NCBI GenBank assembly: GCA_030550585.1
Contig: JAUQPB010000004.1
Coordinates: 1 to 64,000, forward strand
DNA: 64,000 nucleotides
Direction: 5' to 3'
Source of the DNA: Thermoproteota archaeon
Lineage (GTDB): Archaea > Thermoproteota > Thermoprotei_A > Sulfolobales > Ignisphaeraceae
Shown: positions 34,078-44,583 of the stretch, piece after piece
Layout of the letters: each line of letters begins with the position of its first letter
How positions within the stretch are numbered: the first letter of the stretch is position 1
Translations under genes and position numbers: made by a program
Notes under the pieces: model-generated
What the model was told of the DNA's origin: nothing
The model's database searches: none
The model's input: only the letters and a program-made list of their open reading frames with translations

Positions 34078-35085
34078 TCATTTGAATCCCGGTGGCCTCA
34101 CCTTTAAAACATCTTTGTTTACCAGCGTTGGAGGCTCTCTACCCTCGTAAAATGTTATGAGATTTTCTGCAACTAGCTCCGCCATGGCATGTCTAGCCTC
34201 ATATGTTGCAGAGCCTATGTGAGGTGCTAACACAACATTTTTAAATGCTGTTAGTGGGTGGTTTGGTGGGAGAGGCTCCTGCTCAAAAACATCTAGGCCT
34301 GCACCAGCTATCCAGCCCTCAGCCAAAGCCTTTACCAAAGCGTTTGTATCTACGACAGCGCCCCTCGCAGTGTTTATCAGTATAGCTGTCCTCTTCATTT
34401 TTCTAAGCCTCTCCTCGTTGATGAGATGATATGTTTCTTTTGTTAAGGGTACGTGTATCGAAACTATATCCGCTTCCTGCAAAAGTGTGTCAATATCCCT
34501 ATACTCCGCGCCCAGCCTCTTCTCCAATTCCTCGTTTCTCGACCTGCTATAGTATATTATTTTCATGCCAAATGCCTTGCCTATCTCAGCGACTCTAGAG
34601 CCTATTCTGCCAAGGCCTATGATGCCAAGTGTCTTTCCCTTCAACTCAACGCCTAGCATCATGTGTGGGTGCCAGCCTGTTCTTGTTCTCCACCACTCAC
34701 CCCACCTAACAAATGTATCAGCCTCGACAATTCTTCTCGCAACAGCTAGTATCAAGGCCCATGTAAGCTCGGCTGTAGCCTCTGTCAAAACATCTGGTGT
34801 GTTGGTAACATAGATTCCCAGTCTGGTTGCACATGCAACATCTATATTGTCATAGCCAACAGCGTACTGAGCGACAATCCTAAGCCTTTTGGCTTGCTGC
34901 AAAAGGTTACAGTCTATTCTATCACTAAGCATAGATGCTAATGCATCGACCTCCTTGGCTTTTTCAAGAAGAACCTCATATGGTGGGGGCTGATACCTGT
35001 CCCAGACCTCAACCTCATAATATTTACTCAATTTCTCAATTACATTAGGAAAAAGCTCTCTTGTTACAAAAAGTTTTGGTCTCAT
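34078..35085 (-). CDS. gyaR: glyoxylate/hydroxypyruvate reductase, D-2-hydroxyacid dehydrogenase family
   Basis: NAD(P)H-dependent D-2-hydroxyacid dehydrogenase, 335 aa. [20 protein letters not shown] is the dinucleotide-binding motif. The catalytic residues are the Arg in NTARGAVVD, the Glu in DVFEQEPLP and the His in APHIGSAT. The overall layout (LFPNVIEKL near the start, [11 protein letters not shown]) is closest to archaeal glyoxylate reductases. ATG 35085 is chosen, because GAGGTG lies 6 nt upstream; GTG 35094 is the alternative. It converges on the DUF58 gene with 1 bp between stops. It could reduce glyoxylate or hydroxypyruvate formed from sugar-acid breakdown. Confidence 0.9.
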
Positions 35086-35336
35086 GGATCGCACCTCAAC
35101 TTGTTGTAATATCTCCGTAATATCTAGTATATTAAATCTTTCGCCATACCCATAAATATTTGATTTACAAAGCTATTTCCCGCATCCAAATATCCTCAGC
35201 ATCTGACAGTAGCATAATCTGTTTCTGCAGATGGTAGCCTATCCTATTACACATTTTGCTTAGGATCTTCTAAAGGTGTTTAAGCCAGAGAGTGGTAGCA
35301 AGCCCAAAATTTATGATGATAAATGTAGTTAGGCAG

Positions 35337-37097
35337 CTACGAATAGAGGGAAACATGCTGCTTTATATAAGATGGAATTTTGTTAAACAAAGCTGATATT
35401 ATTAGAGTAGACAGTTTTGGCTGTCTATCTCTTGTGTATACACCTTTTCTATTTAATATTGTTCTACCTGGGCTTTGAGGTGTTCTAAAATCTGCGAAAT
35501 TCCATATATGTAGCCCCACTATGTAGTCTCTCTTCATAAGTGCCTCAATGTAGTTTTTGATTAGCTCTGCTTGATATTCCTCTGACCACATCTGTGGCGG
35601 ATCGCTGTGCAAACCTAGAATTGCGTCTGCCCCAAACTCTGTTATTATTATTGGTTTTTCTGGGAATTTGCTATGTATTTGCTCTAGCTCGTTCAACATA
35701 TTTTCTACGCCTTTTTGTATATCTCCCCATTCAGAGTACCAGCCACGATAGTAGTTAAGTGATATGATATCCACATAGCCTAGTGCAAGGTCTTTAAACG
35801 ATTTGTGAGAGGCAAAGGTTACCGGCCTTGTCGGGTCGATGGATTTTACAAACTCTGAGAGTTTTCTTATAGCCTCTGCAACCTCTGGCAAGTCGCTTGG
35901 AGGTTCATTCATAATGCTATACATTATTACTGAAGGTCTATTCTTGTGCTGTCTAACCATTTCTTCTATGAACCTCTTCGCCTTTGCCAAATACTCTTCA
36001 TCTCTAAACAGCTTTGCAATATCCTCTGTGTTGAGAAGCCTTTCTATGCCTGAGTAGCATAGAGGTGGCTCTAGAATAACCATAAAGCCAAATTCGTCTG
36101 CTAGATCTAGATGCTCGTTAGAGTATGGATAGTGAGAGGTTCTAAATGAATTTGCACCCATTTTCTTCATAAGATAGAAGTCTCTTACAAGAACAGCTCC
36201 CGGAAGATACTTACCTGTAACAGGAAAGTCCTCGTGTCTTCCAAAACCTTTGAGAAACACCGGCCTATCGTTTAGATATATTCTTCCATTCCTTACTGTA
36301 ATGCTTCTAAAACCAATCCGCTCGTAGATGGCATCCCTTAAAATGTTGCCAACATAAACCTCGACAACAAAACTATATAGATTTGGCTCCTCAGGCCCCC
36401 AAGGCTTTACACCATCATATCTCTTCTCAAATTTCAGTACACCAGGTTTAGCATTTCTGATATAGTCTTCTGAGATAACCTTGCCAAGCTCTTTATCCAT
36501 GAGAGCAACCCTAACATCAACTTCTCTATCACATACTATCTCAATATCTGCTTTAAGGGCTCCACCATGATTTGTAGCAATTGTTACATCATTTACATGA
36601 CAAACATCAGTAAATTCCAAGTAAACGGGTCTGTGTATACCGCCATAGTGAAAGAAGTCAAAGGCAGTTAAATTAAGCTCCTTTGCTGGAGGTATATTGA
36701 GTATCGATGGAGTGTTGTCTATCCTCACCACAACTTTGTTTAAATCGCCAAATCTTATGCTATCCACTCTAAACTTGAATTGTGTAAAAGACCCTTCATG
36801 CTCGCCAACAAACTTCTCATTTATCCATACGCTAGTCTTGTACCCAGCACCCTCAAATACAATCCAAGCCTCTTTACAATCCAAGAGCCTATCAACATAA
36901 AAATTCTTTTGATACCATGCAACACCTGTAAACTGATCCCATTCAGGGTTTTGCTCATTCCAAGACGATGGAACGTATATTAAATCGCTAGATTCAAAAC
37001 CTCTGAACCAACCCTCTTTATCGCCAGCAAGATTTCTATCAACTCTAAATTTCCAGAAGCCTTCGAGAGATATTTTTGGTCTAAACCAAGATTTCAT
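35337..37097 (-). CDS. GH2 beta-glucuronidase
   Basis: Glycoside hydrolase family 2 enzyme, 586 aa, cytosolic (no signal peptide). Sandwich domain 1-165, immunoglobulin-like domain 165-265, TIM barrel 270-586. The acid/base is E398 (MNEPP), and the nucleophile is E487 (ITEFGAD). The TNIRTxHYPYS-type strand is FRTSHYPYS. Residues 549-551 (NRK in LNRKGVYTRDRQPK) match the N-x-K carboxylate-binding motif that marks beta-glucuronidases among GH2 enzymes, and KGFGRHEDFP also fits. It would release glucuronic acid from imported glycosides. Same strand as the transaldolase-like gene, 85 nt upstream. Confidence 0.88.
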   Translation of the reverse strand: MKSWFRPKISLEGFWKFRVDRNLAGDKEGWFRGFESSDLIYVPSSWNEQNPEWDQFTGVAWYQKNFYVDRLLDCKEAWIVFEGAGYKTSVWINEKFVGEHEGSFTQFKFRVDSIRFGDLNKVVVRIDNTPSILNIPPAKELNLTAFDFFHYGGIHRPVYLEFTDVCHVNDVTIATNHGGALKADIEIVCDREVDVRVALMDKELGKVISEDYIRNAKPGVLKFEKRYDGVKPWGPEEPNLYSFVVEVYVGNILRDAIYERIGFRSITVRNGRIYLNDRPVFLKGFGRHEDFPVTGKYLPGAVLVRDFYLMKKMGANSFRTSHYPYSNEHLDLADEFGFMVILEPPLCYSGIERLLNTEDIAKLFRDEEYLAKAKRFIEEMVRQHKNRPSVIMYSIMNEPPSDLPEVAEAIRKLSEFVKSIDPTRPVTFASHKSFKDLALGYVDIISLNYYRGWYSEWGDIQKGVENMLNELEQIHSKFPEKPIIITEFGADAILGLHSDPPQMWSEEYQAELIKNYIEALMKRDYIVGLHIWNFADFRTPQSPGRTILNRKGVYTRDRQPKLSTLIISALFNKIPSYIKQHVSLYS

Positions 37098-37182: not shown

Positions 37183-39330
37183 TTAGGTTAGCGATTTTAT
37201 TGTACTAACAATTCTCGATCTAAACGCAAGGTATTCTTCAGTAAATTCATGCATTGTTTTTGCTGATGGCCCGTAGGATGGCCATTCATCTACTCTCAGC
37301 CCTCTATTCCCATAGTCTCTATCTATGCCAATTTTCTTTAAAAGCTCGTTAACTTCTGGCGATGCTTCATAGGCTTTTACAAAATCCTCCATTTGCATCA
37401 ATATCTCGAGATATTTTCTTGGCAGTTGCTGATATATAGACTCCCTCAAGTCCTCTAATACAATACTCTTCTTGGCAACCTCTTCAACTACATTTAGTTG
37501 ATGATCTGGGAACTCTGTATTTGTCATGTTTCTGGATGCAAATGTGTATAGAGTGTCAATAGGCTTTCTTTTTGATGCTGGAAGCAGGTCTATTCTGTCC
37601 ATAACAAGCTCTGCCTCTGCTTTTGTTAACCCATACTCTCTAACTAGATAGTTTACCCACTTCTCTCTATTCCACGGAGCAAACATTATCTCATAAACTC
37701 TTTGAGCTACAAATGTGCCTGAAAGCCTCAAAGCCTCTTCAACAGGTTGCAGACTGTTCAAAGCCTCTTCCCTAGATTTGTACAAGCCCAGCTCAACCAA
37801 GGCATCTATGAATGCGTCTCTCAGCAGGTTTCTGCCCAATACCCTTCTACTAGTCAAGAAGCTTACAATACTCTTCAAATCTCTCTTCTTCATCTCCTGC
37901 CAAACATCGTCTTTTACCCCGAGACCCTTAGCAAGCTTCTCTAAAACAACACTTCTCCTAGCCTCATCGACTCTTTCAATAGCTTTCAATAGAAGCTGAG
38001 CAGCAAACTCCTCTCTCAAATGATCCTCTAGCCTACCACCCATGTTAGTGTCATATGTTTGTGTTGGTATAATACCTTTTCTAATGGCCTTTGCCATCCC
38101 CTTTATAGCTGCAAATCCGATTAGAATCTCTTGAGAAACCGTGAAGCTTACGGTTATGTTTTGGCCAACACCCATTTCGTTGATTCTCTCAGCAATTTCT
38201 ATGGCAGCTGGATATGCAGCTGCAACCTTTACAACAAGGTTAGCCCTACCCTTTTCAGGTATGTTATAGCCCCACCAGAGATATTCGTCGTAGACACTAA
38301 GATCTCTTTCCAACCTTGTCACAAATATCTTGACAGCCTCAACACTCTTCTCAACATCGTTTGCTATAAGTGGGTTTAGCTGGTAGCTAACAAGCCCATC
38401 GTGATATTTGGAGAGTATGAATGGAACTCTAAACACATAGAAGTTTTCCATTAAAGCAAATCTAGTGGCCTCCATAGCAATTTCATCAGCATATTTCTCG
38501 GGATTCTCAAACCACTCTGGATGTTCCTTAGCCAGAACATTTTTTGCATATTTCTTGAATCTCTCTAGAAGCTCTGGATCGTCGTTGTATGCAGTAGCTG
38601 CTAGGGGAGGGTTTGTGGATACCTGTACAAATCCTAGATGTCTTAGAAATCTCAGTCCCAGCGCATAGTCATTCCCAAACTTGCATAAACCTGCTTCATA
38701 TGCTTTTCTATAGAATAGATCTCTTATTTGATTGGCCATTGCATTGATGTAGCTCCTGGCTATAGAACCTCTATCAATTTTCTTTGAAACCTCTTGAGCA
38801 ACTCTTGCAACGAGGCTCTTACCCTTGTTGATCTTCATCAAGTCATTTAGTTGCATCTCTACTACAGAATACATTATTGCAGGTTCTCCAAGCTCCTGTC
38901 TCTCAAGAGATTCGAAATAGTCAAGAGCATTAGTTAGGTGTTTAATGTGATTCTCCACATCTTCGCTGGTATAACCAGCCCACTTGCTTTCGGCACCACT
39001 CAAATTGAAGATCATTTCAAATAGGGTATCATAGATTCTAAACCTCTTTAAAACAACTTCTTCATTAAGCCTCCCAGAATGATCTAAAACCTTCTCACTT
39101 TTCAGCAGGTGTTCAACCCTTCTTATAAGAGAGGAAAACGCCTCATTAGCAATTTTGGCAAACTCTGGGTGGAGTATATGGTCTGCTGCAAGTTTTGTCC
39201 AGCCCATTAAAGATGTTTTGATTATATGGTCGGCATGGTCTATACGAGGGGACATGGGTAGTGAGAGGGGTTCAGGCTCTGCTTTTCTAACTATTCCAAT
39301 TATGGTATCTTTGTTTACATAGATTTTCAT
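37183..39330 (-). CDS. large transaldolase-like protein
   Basis: A 715-residue protein in which a transaldolase-type core can be traced. VSTNPPLAATA (about 237-247) matches the family TTNPS signature, GLVSYQLNP (about 312-320) the VSxEVdp strand, VVKVAAAYPAAIEI (K368) the Schiff-base strand, GQNITVSFTVSQ the NxT strand, and MGGRLEDH (430-437) the late VGR motif. Normal transaldolases have 215-350 residues. Here a helical N-terminal domain of about 230 residues, a long insert after TNP, and a C-terminal region of about 280 residues are added. ATG 39330 follows GGTGAG. It lies between the TIM-barrel isomerase (18-33 nt) and glucuronidase genes. Confidence 0.75.
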   Translation of the reverse strand: MKIYVNKDTIIGIVRKAEPEPLSLPMSPRIDHADHIIKTSLMGWTKLAADHILHPEFAKIANEAFSSLIRRVEHLLKSEKVLDHSGRLNEEVVLKRFRIYDTLFEMIFNLSGAESKWAGYTSEDVENHIKHLTNALDYFESLERQELGEPAIMYSVVEMQLNDLMKINKGKSLVARVAQEVSKKIDRGSIARSYINAMANQIRDLFYRKAYEAGLCKFGNDYALGLRFLRHLGFVQVSTNPPLAATAYNDDPELLERFKKYAKNVLAKEHPEWFENPEKYADEIAMEATRFALMENFYVFRVPFILSKYHDGLVSYQLNPLIANDVEKSVEAVKIFVTRLERDLSVYDEYLWWGYNIPEKGRANLVVKVAAAYPAAIEIAERINEMGVGQNITVSFTVSQEILIGFAAIKGMAKAIRKGIIPTQTYDTNMGGRLEDHLREEFAAQLLLKAIERVDEARRSVVLEKLAKGLGVKDDVWQEMKKRDLKSIVSFLTSRRVLGRNLLRDAFIDALVELGLYKSREEALNSLQPVEEALRLSGTFVAQRVYEIMFAPWNREKWVNYLVREYGLTKAEAELVMDRIDLLPASKRKPIDTLYTFASRNMTNTEFPDHQLNVVEEVAKKSIVLEDLRESIYQQLPRKYLEILMQMEDFVKAYEASPEVNELLKKIGIDRDYGNRGLRVDEWPSYGPSAKTMHEFTEEYLAFRSRIVSTIKSLT

Positions 39331-39363: not shown

Positions 39364-40296
39364 TTACATAGATGTTTCTGCTTGGAGATAGAGCTGGAAG
39401 GCGCGTAGGAGAACACTTTTAGCGGTGTGCACAACCTCCATTGGATGCTGACCCTCCTCCGGCCTCACCTCAAAACTTATAGCGCCTCTATAGCCAATGT
39501 CACTCAAAACAGTTAGTAGTTTCGCAACATCTTGTTCTGTATTCAATGCTCCGGGTCTGTAGAAGCCTGGATGGGTATCCAGGAGTTTGTCTCCCACTCT
39601 TTTTGCGCAACCTATATGGATATGCCCTATGAAATCTGGGTATGACTTCAACAGATCTGGAGATTCGTTTAGCAGTGGGGCGTGGCTTAGATCCCACATT
39701 ATATAAACATTCTTTGCCTGTTCCCTCACTTTCTCAACTATCTTTACAGTTTCTTGCAGGGGGCCTGCAAGCCTCTTTCTATCCCAAGCAACATCGAATG
39801 TCTCCAAATAGAGATTCATATTATACTTTGCCGCCTCGCTCCCAAGCTCAACAAGGGTTTTGATCAATGCCTCCCTTGCCTTCTCCCTCTCCGAACCCTC
39901 AACATTTGGCCCAGAACAAATGCCAACAGCTTTATAGCCTCTTCCACCAGCAACCCTAACCTCTCTAAGCAGAACTTCAACACTTTTCATTCTCTCTGCT
40001 TCATCAGTAGCACTAGGATTAACACCCCTTGTTAAGATAACTGGTTGAAGACCCAGAGCAAACTTCTTTCCATACAACCTATTCAACTCATTAATTTTCT
40101 TCCACTCCACATCATCTATAATCATAACTTCCAACAAATCAAAGTAAGGATCTTCTAGCAAAACCCTTATCTTCTCTGAAGCACCTTCAGATGTTTTCAT
40201 AAGTTCTGGGAAAACCATGAATGACACTATACCTATATCCCAAGGAAATCTTGCTATAATTTCAAATTCATTCTTCTTTATATAGCCATACAGCAT
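39364..40296 (-). CDS. sugar phosphate isomerase/epimerase-type TIM barrel protein
   Basis: Xylose-isomerase-like TIM barrel (AP endonuclease 2 family), 310 aa. Metal-binding strands are recognisable: LYLETFDVAWDRKR (Glu), IMWDLSHAPLL (Asp/His), GHIHIGCAKRVG (His) and AISFEVRPEEGQHP (Glu). GYKAVGICSGPNVEG is the central strand. Such enzymes isomerise or epimerise keto-sugars or their phosphates. First gene of the isomerase / transaldolase-like / glucuronidase group, so its substrate is probably a uronic acid or its keto form. No signal peptide. Confidence 0.82.
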   Translation of the reverse strand: MLYGYIKKNEFEIIARFPWDIGIVSFMVFPELMKTSEGASEKIRVLLEDPYFDLLEVMIIDDVEWKKINELNRLYGKKFALGLQPVILTRGVNPSATDEAERMKSVEVLLREVRVAGGRGYKAVGICSGPNVEGSEREKAREALIKTLVELGSEAAKYNMNLYLETFDVAWDRKRLAGPLQETVKIVEKVREQAKNVYIMWDLSHAPLLNESPDLLKSYPDFIGHIHIGCAKRVGDKLLDTHPGFYRPGALNTEQDVAKLLTVLSDIGYRGAISFEVRPEEGQHPMEVVHTAKSVLLRAFQLYLQAETSM

Positions 40297-40813: not shown

Positions 40814-42223
40814 TTATACAACAACAGTTTTTATTCCAAGGAGTTTTGCTGCATCTGCAAGGGGTTTTACATAGTCTCCGTATATCATGCTTGCGTGGTG
40901 TACAAAGCCCTCTTCTATTAGTGTTCTATACACTTTGTCTAGATCCTCCACCTCTACCCATACCCAGCTACCTCTAAAGCTTGGCTTCTCATCTTCTAGC
41001 GCCCTACCTCTGGTTATGAACAGCTTGAATTCTCCATCGTATTCAACAAGTCTCGATATTGTTACAACACCTGGTTTGAGCCTCCCCTCAAAGGTTCCAT
41101 ATGCTCTCTCAACACCGACATCTCTATACATTATGCTGTGGTACATCAATGAACATCTACCGGCACATAGAGCTGGTGGGGCATTTCCACAGTGCCATGC
41201 CAGAAACACATTTGGTTTTTCTGGGTGTTTGATTGTCCAGTCTATGAAGAATGGTGGTGTTTGTTCAAGCGATGCCGCGTACTGCATTATCATTGTCAAA
41301 ACCCCGTAGACATCAACCTCGCATGCTGTCATTATGCCGCTTTGTGTTAGTCTGGCCATTGCATGGCACGGCGAAATGCCATAGTATCTCTGTATCTCTG
41401 TCCAGCATCTAAAGCCGATGCCACTAAGCTTCTTCGACTCTGCAAATCTTCTCAATACAAGCTCTAGCTTAGCTATCTTGAGGAGCGCTTCTTTGGGAAT
41501 TTGCGAAGCATCTGCATAGCTTGTAATCTCGCTTACTATTCTCTGAACAGCTGGATCACTATCGCTAAGCTTCTTAGCCTCTTCAACAACTTCAAGCAGT
41601 GTTGCATGAACAACTCTCTGCTTGAACTTCTCAGCCATTTTAGCCTCATTAAATGTTACAGTCTCGAACCTCTCTGGCCTCGGACCCACAATTCCGACTC
41701 TAGCCCCAACAAACCTCCTATATATGGAGACAACCCTGATGAAGTTGTCGAAACTGTCTACAAACTCCTTGTCCTCTGGAAACACAATACCTCCGAACAG
41801 AAATGGTATCTTCCTTCTATACAAAGCCGAGGCTAGGGATAATGTGCCACAGAAAGAATCGGATCTCCTAAACCCGCCAGGAAGAGTCTCAGGCTCTTTA
41901 GTAGCAAAGACAATTATCGGCAAACCCCTAAACTCCTCAGCTACCCTAGCACCGGCAAGCTCATCCCCAAAGGTAAGAGTTGATAGCACTATCCCCTCAA
42001 CACCCCTCTCCCTAAAAAGCTTTACAACCCTCTCAGCATCCTCATCATCTGTAACCAACCCCATCTTAGTGTCCTTCTCACTAGGATAAACAACCTCGAC
42101 AAAACCCCCAAACCTCTGCTCAACAACACTGACAAACCTCTTCTTCAGCTCCTGAGCCCACAGCTCGTCAAATGGATATCGATGCAGAGGGACAAACCCG
42201 ATCTTTATCCTTTCCAAAACCAC
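40814..42223 (-). CDS. L-fucose/L-arabinose isomerase-family protein
   Basis: Ketol isomerase of the FucI/AraA superfamily, 467-469 aa, in the reduced form seen in archaea. FVPLHRYPFDELWAQE begins the N-terminal Rossmann-like domain. The middle domain has KEPETLPGGFRRSDSFCG and GPRPERFETVTFNEA, and the active-site part GIGFRCWTEIQRYYGISPCH and CEVDVYGVLTMI, with metal-binding Glu/Asp, followed by FLAWHCGNAPP. It probably interconverts an aldose and ketose. GTG 42223 or, with better spacing to GGTGAG, TTG 42217 is the start. A TATA box at 42274-42283 gives it its own promoter. Confidence 0.83.
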   Translation of the reverse strand: MVLERIKIGFVPLHRYPFDELWAQELKKRFVSVVEQRFGGFVEVVYPSEKDTKMGLVTDDEDAERVVKLFRERGVEGIVLSTLTFGDELAGARVAEEFRGLPIIVFATKEPETLPGGFRRSDSFCGTLSLASALYRRKIPFLFGGIVFPEDKEFVDSFDNFIRVVSIYRRFVGARVGIVGPRPERFETVTFNEAKMAEKFKQRVVHATLLEVVEEAKKLSDSDPAVQRIVSEITSYADASQIPKEALLKIAKLELVLRRFAESKKLSGIGFRCWTEIQRYYGISPCHAMARLTQSGIMTACEVDVYGVLTMIMQYAASLEQTPPFFIDWTIKHPEKPNVFLAWHCGNAPPALCAGRCSLMYHSIMYRDVGVERAYGTFEGRLKPGVVTISRLVEYDGEFKLFITRGRALEDEKPSFRGSWVWVEVEDLDKVYRTLIEEGFVHHASMIYGDYVKPLADAAKLLGIKTVVV

Positions 42224-42336: not shown

Positions 42337-42783
42337 TTAAGATCTAAATATTAGTGTTCTTCTCGATAAGTCAACAATCACAGCTATAACCAGTATCAAT
42401 GCTGTTGCTACATCTTGCCAATAAGGCGAAATCCCTATGAATACTATACCAGTTCTAGCAATTGACACAAGTAATGCTCCGAGTACGGCATTGAAGGCAT
42501 TTCCTTCGCCTCCAGCTAGACTTACACCTGCCAATGCACAAGACGCAACTGCCAAGAGTTCCTGTCCTGAGGCTATGTCTGCGTAACCAGATGCTATTAG
42601 CCCCGCATATATCATTCCAGCTATGCTAGCCATGGCACCAGAGTACGCAAATGCAAATATCCTCGCTTTATGTATTGGTATGCCAGCAACTCTAGCAGCC
42701 TCTAGGTTACCACCTATAGCATAGAGGTATCTTCCTATGGCAGTCCTCTGCTGAATGAATATATATGAGAACAGGTATACAGT
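42337..42783 (-). pseudogene. RbsC-type ABC sugar permease, C-terminal remnant
   Basis: The open frame (149 codons to a stop at 42784) reads as the C-terminal half of a BPD_transp_2 permease: IQQRTAIGRYLYAIGGN, then EAARVAGIPIHKARIFAF, and to the end SPYWQDVATALILVIAVIVDL. The family norm is about 310-340 residues, so roughly the N-terminal 180 are missing. It stops making sense where the rhamnulokinase remnant starts on the opposite strand. No ATPase or binding-protein gene of the transporter is in the window. An internal ATG (42633) exists, but the product would not work. Confidence 0.75.
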
Positions 42784-43889
42784 TCATGCCTATAAATCCT
42801 CTTTACCAACTTTATGCCATGGTCAAAGATAATTCCTCTTCGCTTAAAGCAGCAAAAACCTTTTTGATGATGCCGGACCTGTTCAATTATTGGTTATCAG
42901 GTGTTATAGCATCTGAGTACACAGATGCTTCTACAACTCAGTTTCTTGATCCATGGTCAAAGAAATGGGCCTTTGATTTGCTAGAGGAAATAGGGTTTCC
43001 AACAGATATATTTCCCAATATTATTGAACCTGGAACAAGACTAGGTGAAGTGAGCTCTAGTCTTGCAGAGGAACTGGATATACCAAGAAGCATAGCTGTC
43101 ATTGCACCAGCTACACATGATACCGCATCAGCTGTTGCAGCTTCTCCAATAGAAGATGACTCTGCTTATATAAGTTGTGGTACATGGAGTTTAGTTGGCA
43201 TAGAGGTGCCTAGCCCAATAATAAATAGAAAGGCTATGGAATATAACTTTACCAATGAGGGAGGCATTTTCAATACAATTAGATTTCTAAAGAACGTCCA
43301 GGGAATGTGGTTCCTACAAGAGATAAAACGTGCACTCGCACTAAAAGGAGAGGATTACTCATATGAGGAACTAACAAAAATGGCTGCAGAAGCAAAAGGA
43401 TTCATAGGATTTATTGACCCGGACGACCCAAGATTCTTAGCACCAACAAATATGGTTGAAGAAATCATGAAGTTTCTTGAAGAGACAAAGCAAAACAAGC
43501 CTAGGAACATCGGTGAGCTGGTACGTCTAGTTTTAGAAAGTCTTGCAATGAAATATAGATTCGTTATAGAAAGGCTGGAAGATATATCAGGAAAGAAGAT
43601 AAGAAAGATCAACATTGTTGGAGGAGGATCAAGAAACTGGTTACACAATCAACTAGTAGCAGACTTTACAAACAAAGTTGTTGTGTCAGGGCCAGAGGAA
43701 GCCACATCAATAGGCAATATGCTTACACAGCTAGTTGGTTTAGGCTACATAAAATCATTAAAAGAGATTAGAGAATATGTGAAAAACTCATTTAATCTAC
43801 GAACATTCGAGCCTCAGCATAGCAATAAACATGATGACATGTACTCATCTTTTCTAGATATGCTAGAGAAGCTTGGCAGAATAAAGTGA
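42765..43889 (+). pseudogene. rhamnulokinase-like FGGY kinase, N-terminally truncated
   Basis: A 374-residue frame (ATG 42765) that matches the C-terminal three quarters of an FGGY sugar kinase, closest to rhamnulokinase: TGIQFMPINPLYQLYAM, LMMPDLFNYWLSG, PGTRLGEVSSS, PATHDTASAVA, CGTWSLVG, and the ATP-binding IVGGGSRN. RhaB is normally about 480-490 residues. The missing part carries the N-terminal phosphate loop (usually DxGTxx). A TGA stop sits 9 nt before the ATG, so it cannot be a simple start error. No further stop is present; the loss is recent or an assembly artefact. Confidence 0.8.
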
Positions 43890-43974: not shown

Positions 43975-44583
43975 ATGAACCAACATAACGTTAGCGAGAA
44001 AGATAAGGTTAAGCGACAAATATGTGAAGCTCTTAGAATGATGTATCTAAAGGGGTTGATAACGCCACTTACAGGCAATATCAGTGTTAGGGTAGATGAG
44101 AAGACCATTGTTATGACACCATCAGCATTTGTTCCAACTATAAGGCTAAAGTATGAGCTCAAGCCTGAGGATCTGGTTGAGGTTGATATAGAGGGTAATG
44201 TGATTAGTGGTGGAAGACCTACAACAGAGCTGCCAATGCATTTAGCTATCTATAGAAGCTGTAGCAAGTGCAAAGCTGTTGTGCATATACATGGGGTTTA
44301 CTCTCCGCTTATATCGGAAAAGGATATGGGGAATCTGTTTTTAGATACGGAGCTGAAGTACATTCTCAAGCCTAGGATATGTCTAGTGAAGGAGCTTATC
44401 CCAAGGACAACGGATTTGGCTGACGCTGTTGCCAAGAAGGTTGCCGAGGGCTGTGAGATAATATATTTGGAGGGGCATGGCGTTGTAACAGTCTCTGACA
44501 GCCTTGGCATGGCTCTCGAGCTTGCGGAGTTGGCAGAGGTTATTGCGACCAGAACTGTTTTCCACAAGATAATGCTGAAATGA
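43975..44583 (+). CDS. class II aldolase (L-fuculose-1-phosphate aldolase-like)
   Basis: Zinc-dependent class II aldolase/adducin family protein, 202 aa. TGNISVR is the phosphate-binding loop; the zinc ligands are seen in VVHIHGVYSP (HxH) and LEGHGVV (third His), with the catalytic Glu near TTELPMHLAIY. It would split a ketose-1-phosphate (fuculose, rhamnulose or ribulose phosphate) into dihydroxyacetone phosphate or glycolaldehyde and an aldehyde. It follows the rhamnulokinase remnant on the same strand (85 nt), so the isomerase, kinase, aldolase set for a deoxysugar seems to have been here once. Confidence 0.87.
   Translation: MNQHNVSEKDKVKRQICEALRMMYLKGLITPLTGNISVRVDEKTIVMTPSAFVPTIRLKYELKPEDLVEVDIEGNVISGGRPTTELPMHLAIYRSCSKCKAVVHIHGVYSPLISEKDMGNLFLDTELKYILKPRICLVKELIPRTTDLADAVAKKVAEGCEIIYLEGHGVVTVSDSLGMALELAELAEVIATRTVFHKIMLK

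Follow-up and report, generated by a model that had tools for sequence, protein, structure and literature searches.

In a 64,000-nucleotide stretch of DNA from a Thermoproteota archaeon of the family Ignisphaeraceae (GenBank assembly GCA_030550585.1, contig JAUQPB010000004.1, positions 1 to 64,000; hereafter the window), we analysed a gene for a 715-residue transaldolase-like protein (large TAL) that most likely represents a new large subfamily of the transaldolase/fructose-6-phosphate aldolase (FSA) superfamily. We consider it probable that this protein is a class I, Schiff-base-forming enzyme that cleaves the C3-C4 bond of D-fructuronate. On balance we also favour the existence, in archaea and some bacteria, of a widespread, previously undescribed route in which uronic acids and myo-inositol converge on D-fructuronate, which would be cut directly by this giant TAL with its Gln/Met active site, bypassing reduction, dehydration and 2-keto-3-deoxygluconate (KDG). 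An initial annotation, made from the letters of the window, had suggested an oversized transaldolase-like enzyme that cuts a uronic-acid-derived sugar, perhaps in place of the usual KDG aldolase route. That suggestion is most likely right and can now be sharpened to a subfamily of keto-uronate (fructuronate) aldolases or transaldolases; that the KDG route is replaced is something we infer. A literature search confined to open-licence papers revealed no fructuronate or tagaturonate aldolase or transaldolase and no earlier description of large TAL.

Reading frame, fold and distribution

Open reading frame (ORF) analysis and translation place the gene on the minus strand, with its ATG at 39330 and the stop codon ending at 37183, and a ribosome-binding-like GGTGAG lies just upstream of the ATG. 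A plus-strand reading of the same interval was dropped since that frame is full of stops. The initial annotation had given the coordinates and length exactly, with no strand. Alignment A1 contains eleven close full-length relatives with 58-89% identity from end to end, which establishes a conserved gene rather than a chance ORF.

The Pfam comparison that the initial annotation proposed gave a match of TAL_FSA (PF00923) to residues 228-404 above the gathering score (6.8e-9; 35.9 bits against a cut-off of 27), and all 45 full-length relatives matched the same model. A search of the PDB with the single large TAL sequence returned nothing relevant; transaldolases were reached only by the family profile. 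The AlphaFold2 model, for which the alignment of the 45 full-length relatives served as input, was obtained with high scores (pLDDT 94.5, pTM 0.91) and contains eight barrel strands (residues 217-220, 234-238, 313-317, 365-370, 389-395, 425-429, 580-584 and 602-606). When it was compared with the PDB by Foldseek, all 35 matches at E below 0.001 were transaldolases (best E 1.1e-8, TM-score 0.72 on the target). The annotation had staked its reading on a TAL-type barrel with a lysine at its centre; the predicted barrel is of that type, and an invariant lysine, Lys368, is located on strand 4. Each of the motifs it quoted was recovered, namely TNPP (239-242), VVKVAAAYP (366-374), the N-x-T strand NITVSF (391-396) and GGR (431-433). 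Its description of an oversized protein with N- and C-terminal additions also holds for both ends, with the correction that the model has a large insert within the barrel as well, at strands 6/7 (Table 1).

Table 1. Features of the large TAL and of the surrounding gene cluster (positions in the window)
Feature	Coordinates	Strand	Basis
Large TAL, proposed keto-uronate aldolase/transaldolase, 715 residues	37183..39330	-	ORF, Pfam TAL_FSA, AlphaFold2, Foldseek
Helical N-terminal domain, residues 1-212	38695..39330	-	Model secondary structure; outside TAL_FSA, no Pfam match
Barrel including insert, residues 217-606	37513..38682	-	AlphaFold2 model
Helical insert, strands 6/7, residues 431-578 (~150 residues)	37597..38040	-	Model; much shorter in L028/L029
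C-terminal helical extension, residues 608-715	37186..37509	-	Model
Lys368 codon, predicted Schiff-base lysine, strand 4	38227..38229	-	Aligned with the Lys of VMIKIPAT / AMIKVPAT in solved transaldolases; 45/45
Gln317 codon, position of the transaldolase catalytic Glu (Gln in FSA)	38380..38382	-	Profile alignment; 45/45
TIM-barrel isomerase (AP_endonuc_2)	39364..40296	-	Pfam 2.1e-17; 33 bases upstream of TAL
Glycoside hydrolase family 2 (GH2) beta-glucuronidase-like enzyme	35337..37097	-	NCBIfam UidA-type beta-glucuronidase, 440 bits, cut-off 544; LNRKGVYTRDRQPK
Glyoxylate/hydroxypyruvate reductase	34078..35094	-	NCBIfam glyoxylate reductase, 625 bits, cut-off 455

Our search of 60 related genomes identified a close homologue in 13, the genome of the window included; these belong mainly to the same genus, and one is a fragment at a contig end. 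The same search revealed a more divergent large TAL in genome G012, which represents a second subfamily with a short insert and is present as two copies, L028:3875-6160 (762 residues) and L029:1-1401, that are ~91% identical and come from one genome bin, of the same archaeal family; UxaE, IolO-like and IolN genes lie alongside. L028 has the elements LGNDYA, SNP, SLQLNP, FKVPAS, NVTVNF, YLTIMNGR and ASLR in common with the family, and in the two proteins the TAL_FSA match (83 bits) extends along most of the model. This shared signature, together with the nearly full-length match, links the entire barrel to the superfamily. When one genome was scanned for each species, 54 loci came to light, in Ignisphaera, Desulfurococcales, Thermofilales, Brockarchaeota, Bathyarchaeota, Aerophobetes and Deltaproteobacteria/Syntrophaceae. 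Viral contigs contained no relatives of large TAL, and PHROGs gave nothing.

Active site

No variation was seen among the 45 relatives at Asp221, Asn240, Gln317, Lys368, Asn391, Thr393, Thr428, Met430, Arg433, Ser586 and Arg588. In the alignment of the family profile, Lys368 falls on the lysine of transaldolases and Gln317 on the Glu of VSIEVDP. In TalB we take the equivalents to be, in the same order, Asp17, Asn35, Glu96, Lys132, Asn154, Thr156, Ser176, Phe178, Arg181, Ser226 and Arg228, a correspondence drawn from motif and strand order, not from superposed coordinates; several of these TalB positions occur as mutants in the titles of the Foldseek matches. Arg433 of the GGR motif and Ser586 and Arg588 of PASKR fall at the TalB phosphate site (Arg181, Ser226, Arg228) in every relative, and the catalytic Glu on strand 3 (TalB E96) is uniformly replaced by Gln317.

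A Gln at this position is also present in FSA, whose chains of ~220 residues form a decamer and which releases dihydroxyacetone independently of an acceptor. The FSA site comprises Asp6, Asn28, Gln59, Lys85, Thr109 and the general acid/base Tyr131 (PMC13259622). Its Gln59, Lys85, Asp6, Asn28 and Thr109 are matched by the invariant Gln317, Lys368, Asp221, Asn240 and Thr393 of large TAL, and the place of FSA Tyr131 and TalB Phe178, three residues before the conserved Arg, is taken by Met430 (45/45). As judged from sequence, the site resembles FSA at Gln317 and TalB at the anion site, and at Met430 it matches neither enzyme. Since the Tyr131 acid/base is replaced, the proton shuttle must differ from that of FSA. 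When profiles were compared, large TAL showed no significant match to four small FSA-type proteins from archaea of the same order, so that the evidence for a link to FSA consists of single residues and the fold.

Gene neighbourhoods and co-occurrence

We examined the neighbourhoods of 60 TAL loci by neighbour-gene clustering and family scans, within the locus stretches available to us. The initial annotation had recommended such a survey and had drawn a uronate link from two neighbours in the window; the link proved to be much stronger across the family, since UxaE, UxaC, KduI/IolB-type and inositol-to-tagaturonate genes accompany large TAL in both archaea and bacteria. UxaE (PF16257, tagaturonate/fructuronate epimerase) is the commonest conserved partner, occurring at 29 of the 60 loci. 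At 17 loci the epimerase gene directly adjoins TAL, 16 times in the same orientation, and in 7 cases the two genes overlap; two UxaE subfamilies are represented, on both sides of the deepest split in the TAL tree. UxaC exceeded its cut-off (498 bits against 387) in the bacterial operon L058, which reads IolM-like/reductase/UxaE/TAL/UxaC, and a divergent UxaC-like gene is present in Ignisphaera relatives; across the family, uronate isomerase and UxaE genes are linked to large TAL, as in a hexuronate context. KduI/IolB-family genes were detected at TAL loci of Deltaproteobacteria and Bathyarchaeota. Among inositol genes at TAL loci, IolM scored above its cut-off (546/450) and IolN just under (238/245), while IolO-like and IolG-like genes were seen in L023, L037, L076 and others. 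The array at L076 consists of IolG, IolM, IolN, IolO-like, TAL, UxaE, reductase and TIM isomerase genes, and L037 carries the same set. A hydroxypyruvate/glyoxylate reductase cluster was represented at 18 TAL loci, a glycerate 2-kinase stands beside TAL in five (L025, L044-L046, L048), and DhaK and DhaL genes are located at L019.

Two further observations concern these loci. At L044, L045, L046 and L048, all from uncultured archaea and Brockarchaeota among them, URO-D-family proteins and a PhoPQ-related protein flank TAL beside the IolO-like and glycerate kinase genes. A class I aldolase of the DeoC/LacD family occurs at L017, L036, L040, L041 and L047, that of L036 scoring just over the cut-off of the ADTH-synthase subfamily; its substrate might come from the arm of dihydroxyacetone phosphate or of fructose phosphate.

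Across the 60 related genomes UxaE was identified in 14, large TAL of either subfamily in 14 and both in 12 (Fisher p = 5e-9, uncorrected for kinship); the two genomes with UxaE only are 70% and 56% complete. Within the genus, each of the nine genomes with large TAL also has a UxaC-like gene, and none was detected in the two that lack large TAL. In the genome of the window this gene is on contig 4, unlinked to large TAL, and no UxaE was detectable there, which fits a diet of glucuronides only. Genome G003 likewise has large TAL and UxaC-like genes with no detectable UxaE. Neither the UxaB/UxuB reductase nor the UxuA dehydratase families of the Ashwell pathway were detected in the related genomes (0/60 for each), by searches in which the positive controls worked and sensitivity was limited; UxaB/UxuB was present in 2 of 25 other TAL-bearing genomes.

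The gene cluster in the window

The neighbours of large TAL are as the initial annotation had described them, a TIM-barrel isomerase upstream and a GH2 glucuronidase-like enzyme downstream (Table 1). The isomerase gene is probably co-transcribed with large TAL. Its product scored 44 bits with the NCBIfam IolO model and 34 bits with that for hydroxypyruvate isomerase, both under cut-off, and genes of this type lie beside TAL in 20 loci, sometimes together with a separate IolO-like gene. The GH2 gene has its own A+T-rich upstream region of ~85 bases. In GH2 glucuronidases an N-x-K motif marks specificity for glucuronate, and the enzyme of the window has NRK at this position; on these sequence features we propose that it would liberate glucuronate.

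Further upstream, at 40814-42223 (-), is a protein of the fucose/arabinose-isomerase fold whose best curated match was sulfoquinovose isomerase (SftI; 159 bits against a cut-off of 700). Copies 70-96% identical exist in most of the genus, unlinked to TAL, and it is probably a deoxyhexose or other aldose isomerase. A 98-residue C-terminal piece of a sugar ATP-binding cassette (ABC) permease at 42340-42633 (-) abuts a rhamnulokinase gene (42765-43886, +) that lacks about the first 120 residues, which no upstream frame supplies; the boundary looks like a deletion or decay junction. The isomerase, the broken rhamnulokinase and the class II aldolase at 43975 were first considered as pathway members; we assign them to a deoxyhexose module of their own, because the isomerase is unlinked to TAL in relatives. 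Elsewhere in the same genome a glycerate 2-kinase adjoins a TIM-barrel protein and a KduI/IolB-family protein (L101:5928-9197, contig 7 near 246-249 kb), possibly a second uronate module.

Proposed reaction and pathway

Fold, lysine, active-site conservation, neighbourhoods and co-occurrence come from sequences and the model, and from them we infer what the enzyme cuts, what it yields and which step the TIM-barrel isomerase performs. Lys368 would attack the C2 keto group of D-fructuronate to form a Schiff base, with the C6 carboxylate held by Arg433, Ser586 and Arg588 in the way that classical transaldolases hold phosphate. A retro-aldol cut between C3 and C4 would then let C4-C6 leave as tartronate semialdehyde, with the dihydroxyacetone enamine remaining bound. 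This unit may be released free, as in FSA, or be passed to glyceraldehyde 3-phosphate to give fructose 6-phosphate. We slightly favour free release because of Gln317 and the linked DhaK and DhaL genes, while the scarcity of dihydroxyacetone kinase elsewhere speaks for transfer.

UxaC converts D-glucuronate to D-fructuronate and D-galacturonate to D-tagaturonate, and UxaE interconverts the two keto-uronates (PMC6353982); IolO epimerises 5-keto-L-gluconate to D-tagaturonate (PMC12632266). Fructuronate could accordingly be supplied from glucuronides by the GH2 glucuronidase with a UxaC-like or KduI/IolB-type isomerase, from galacturonate by UxaC and UxaE, and from myo-inositol by IolG, IolM, IolN and IolO with UxaE. 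On the exit side, the TIM-barrel isomerase would turn tartronate semialdehyde into hydroxypyruvate, the reductase would yield D-glycerate and glycerate 2-kinase would form 2-phosphoglycerate; the other arm would depend on dihydroxyacetone kinase or on transfer to glyceraldehyde 3-phosphate. Transaldolases and FSA cut the 3S,4R (fructose) configuration, which is present in D-fructuronate and not in tagaturonate, so that galacturonate and inositol could be fed in only with UxaE, which glucuronate would not require.

Alternative explanations

Several observations weigh against a fructuronate-splitting enzyme or against parts of the route. Most Bathyarchaeota loci have no pathway neighbours in the stretch examined, and neither uronate nor inositol genes lie near the deep-branching bacterial TALs L075 and L077, whose role may differ from that of the rest of the family. 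Met430 occupies the place of the FSA acid/base, for which Tyr426, Tyr222, Glu606 and His610 are candidate substitutes. The weak and nearly equal IolO and hydroxypyruvate isomerase scores make the step given to the TIM-barrel isomerase a guess. Dihydroxyacetone kinase (Dak1) was identified in only 2 of 21 relatives, which would leave free dihydroxyacetone with no obvious kinase in most of them. A six-frame search with the Pfam UxaC model gave 0/21, a false negative, since a protein query found divergent UxaC-like genes; the absences of UxaB/UxuB and UxuA are for this reason good evidence, not conclusive.

The scarcity of Dak1 is also what lends some weight to a strict transaldolase, which would convert D-fructuronate and glyceraldehyde 3-phosphate to fructose 6-phosphate and tartronate semialdehyde as the carboxylate counterpart of the sulfo-TAL pathway. 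The invariant phosphate-site residues agree with this, as do the nearest solved structures, which are full-size transaldolases and not FSA; however, Gln317 replaces Glu as in FSA and in the engineered TalB E96Q, and DhaK and DhaL share a locus with TAL at L019, so we regard a strict transaldolase as possible but rather unlikely. Less probable still is cleavage of tagaturonate, 5-keto-L-gluconate or another epimer, in which case UxaE would run from fructuronate to tagaturonate. UxaE is reversible and is found at most loci, and IolO-like genes, whose enzymes form tagaturonate, are frequent neighbours; but the stereochemistry of the superfamily is against these substrates, and both the genome of the window and G003 combine large TAL and UxaC-like genes with no detectable UxaE. 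The Pfam assignment and the conserved phosphate-site residues would suit an ordinary sugar-phosphate enzyme, that is, a pentose-phosphate transaldolase or FSA with extra domains for stability or assembly. We think this improbable, given that the partners are genes for non-phosphorylated uronates and inositol instead of pentose-phosphate genes and that some TAL-bearing genomes also have a separate small FSA-type protein. Least credible is a role in sulfoquinovose breakdown, as a sulfofructose transaldolase that works together with the isomerase at 40814-42223. The position of that isomerase just upstream, its similarity to SftI and the analogous chemistry brought this reading up, yet its SftI score lies far under the cut-off and is the best of any neighbour, leaving no SftI ortholog, the mark of a sulfo-TAL cluster, at this locus; the gene is unlinked to TAL elsewhere in the genus and adjoins a broken rhamnulokinase in the window, the partners across the family are uronate and inositol genes, and the glycosidase carries the glucuronidase N-x-K motif. 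A Tal-Pgi fusion was dropped (12 bits against a cut-off of 712).

Comparison with known systems and significance

Large TAL resembles TalB-type transaldolases (EC 2.2.1.2) in its strand-4 Schiff-base lysine barrel, in its set of Asp, Asn, Asn-x-Thr, Ser/Thr, Arg and Ser-x-Arg residues and in its best structural matches. It differs in length (715 residues against ~320-360), owing to the extra N-terminal domain, the strand 6/7 insert and the C-terminal end, in the changes of Glu to Gln and Phe to Met, and in its uronate gene context. With FSA and TalC/MipB it shares the Gln at the Gln59 position, the barrel and lysine, and the predicted dihydroxyacetone chemistry, but it is three times larger and has Met at the Tyr131 position. 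The sulfofructose transaldolases (SftT, BmSF-TAL) offer the same pathway logic of glycosidase, isomerase and TAL-fold cut of a C6-anionic ketose, although they are small (218-226 residues in PDB chains), act on a sulfonate and are not accompanied by uronate genes. Tal-Pgi, the bifunctional transaldolase/glucose-6-phosphate isomerase (PRK09533), is likewise a large transaldolase-containing protein, whereas large TAL has no match to a phosphoglucose isomerase domain.

Known bacterial breakdown of hexuronates via keto-uronates proceeds by reduction and dehydration to KDG. The proposed route shares with the Ashwell pathway (UxaC-UxaB/UxuB-UxaA/UxuA-KdgK-KdgA) the UxaC entry to fructuronate and tagaturonate, linked by UxaE (PMC6353982). 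It would differ in cleaving the keto-uronate itself; searches of the relatives detected neither the reductase nor the mannonate dehydratase family of the Ashwell pathway. The feeder genes are those of the Thermotoga maritima IolG-IolM-IolN-IolO route to tagaturonate. In Thermotoga the inositol product continues via tagaturonate reductase, in whose place large TAL stands here.

Large TAL is a candidate for a thermostable biocatalyst, and the proposal offers a concrete function for a family now seen only as a weak transaldolase match. If it is true, direct aldol cleavage of a keto-uronate would constitute a further basic route of hexuronate use, and the sulfofructose transaldolase pathway would gain a parallel for carboxylates. 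Such cleavage would also explain how archaea that carry UxaE and inositol genes, with no detectable Ashwell reductases, make use of glucuronides, pectin sugars and inositol.

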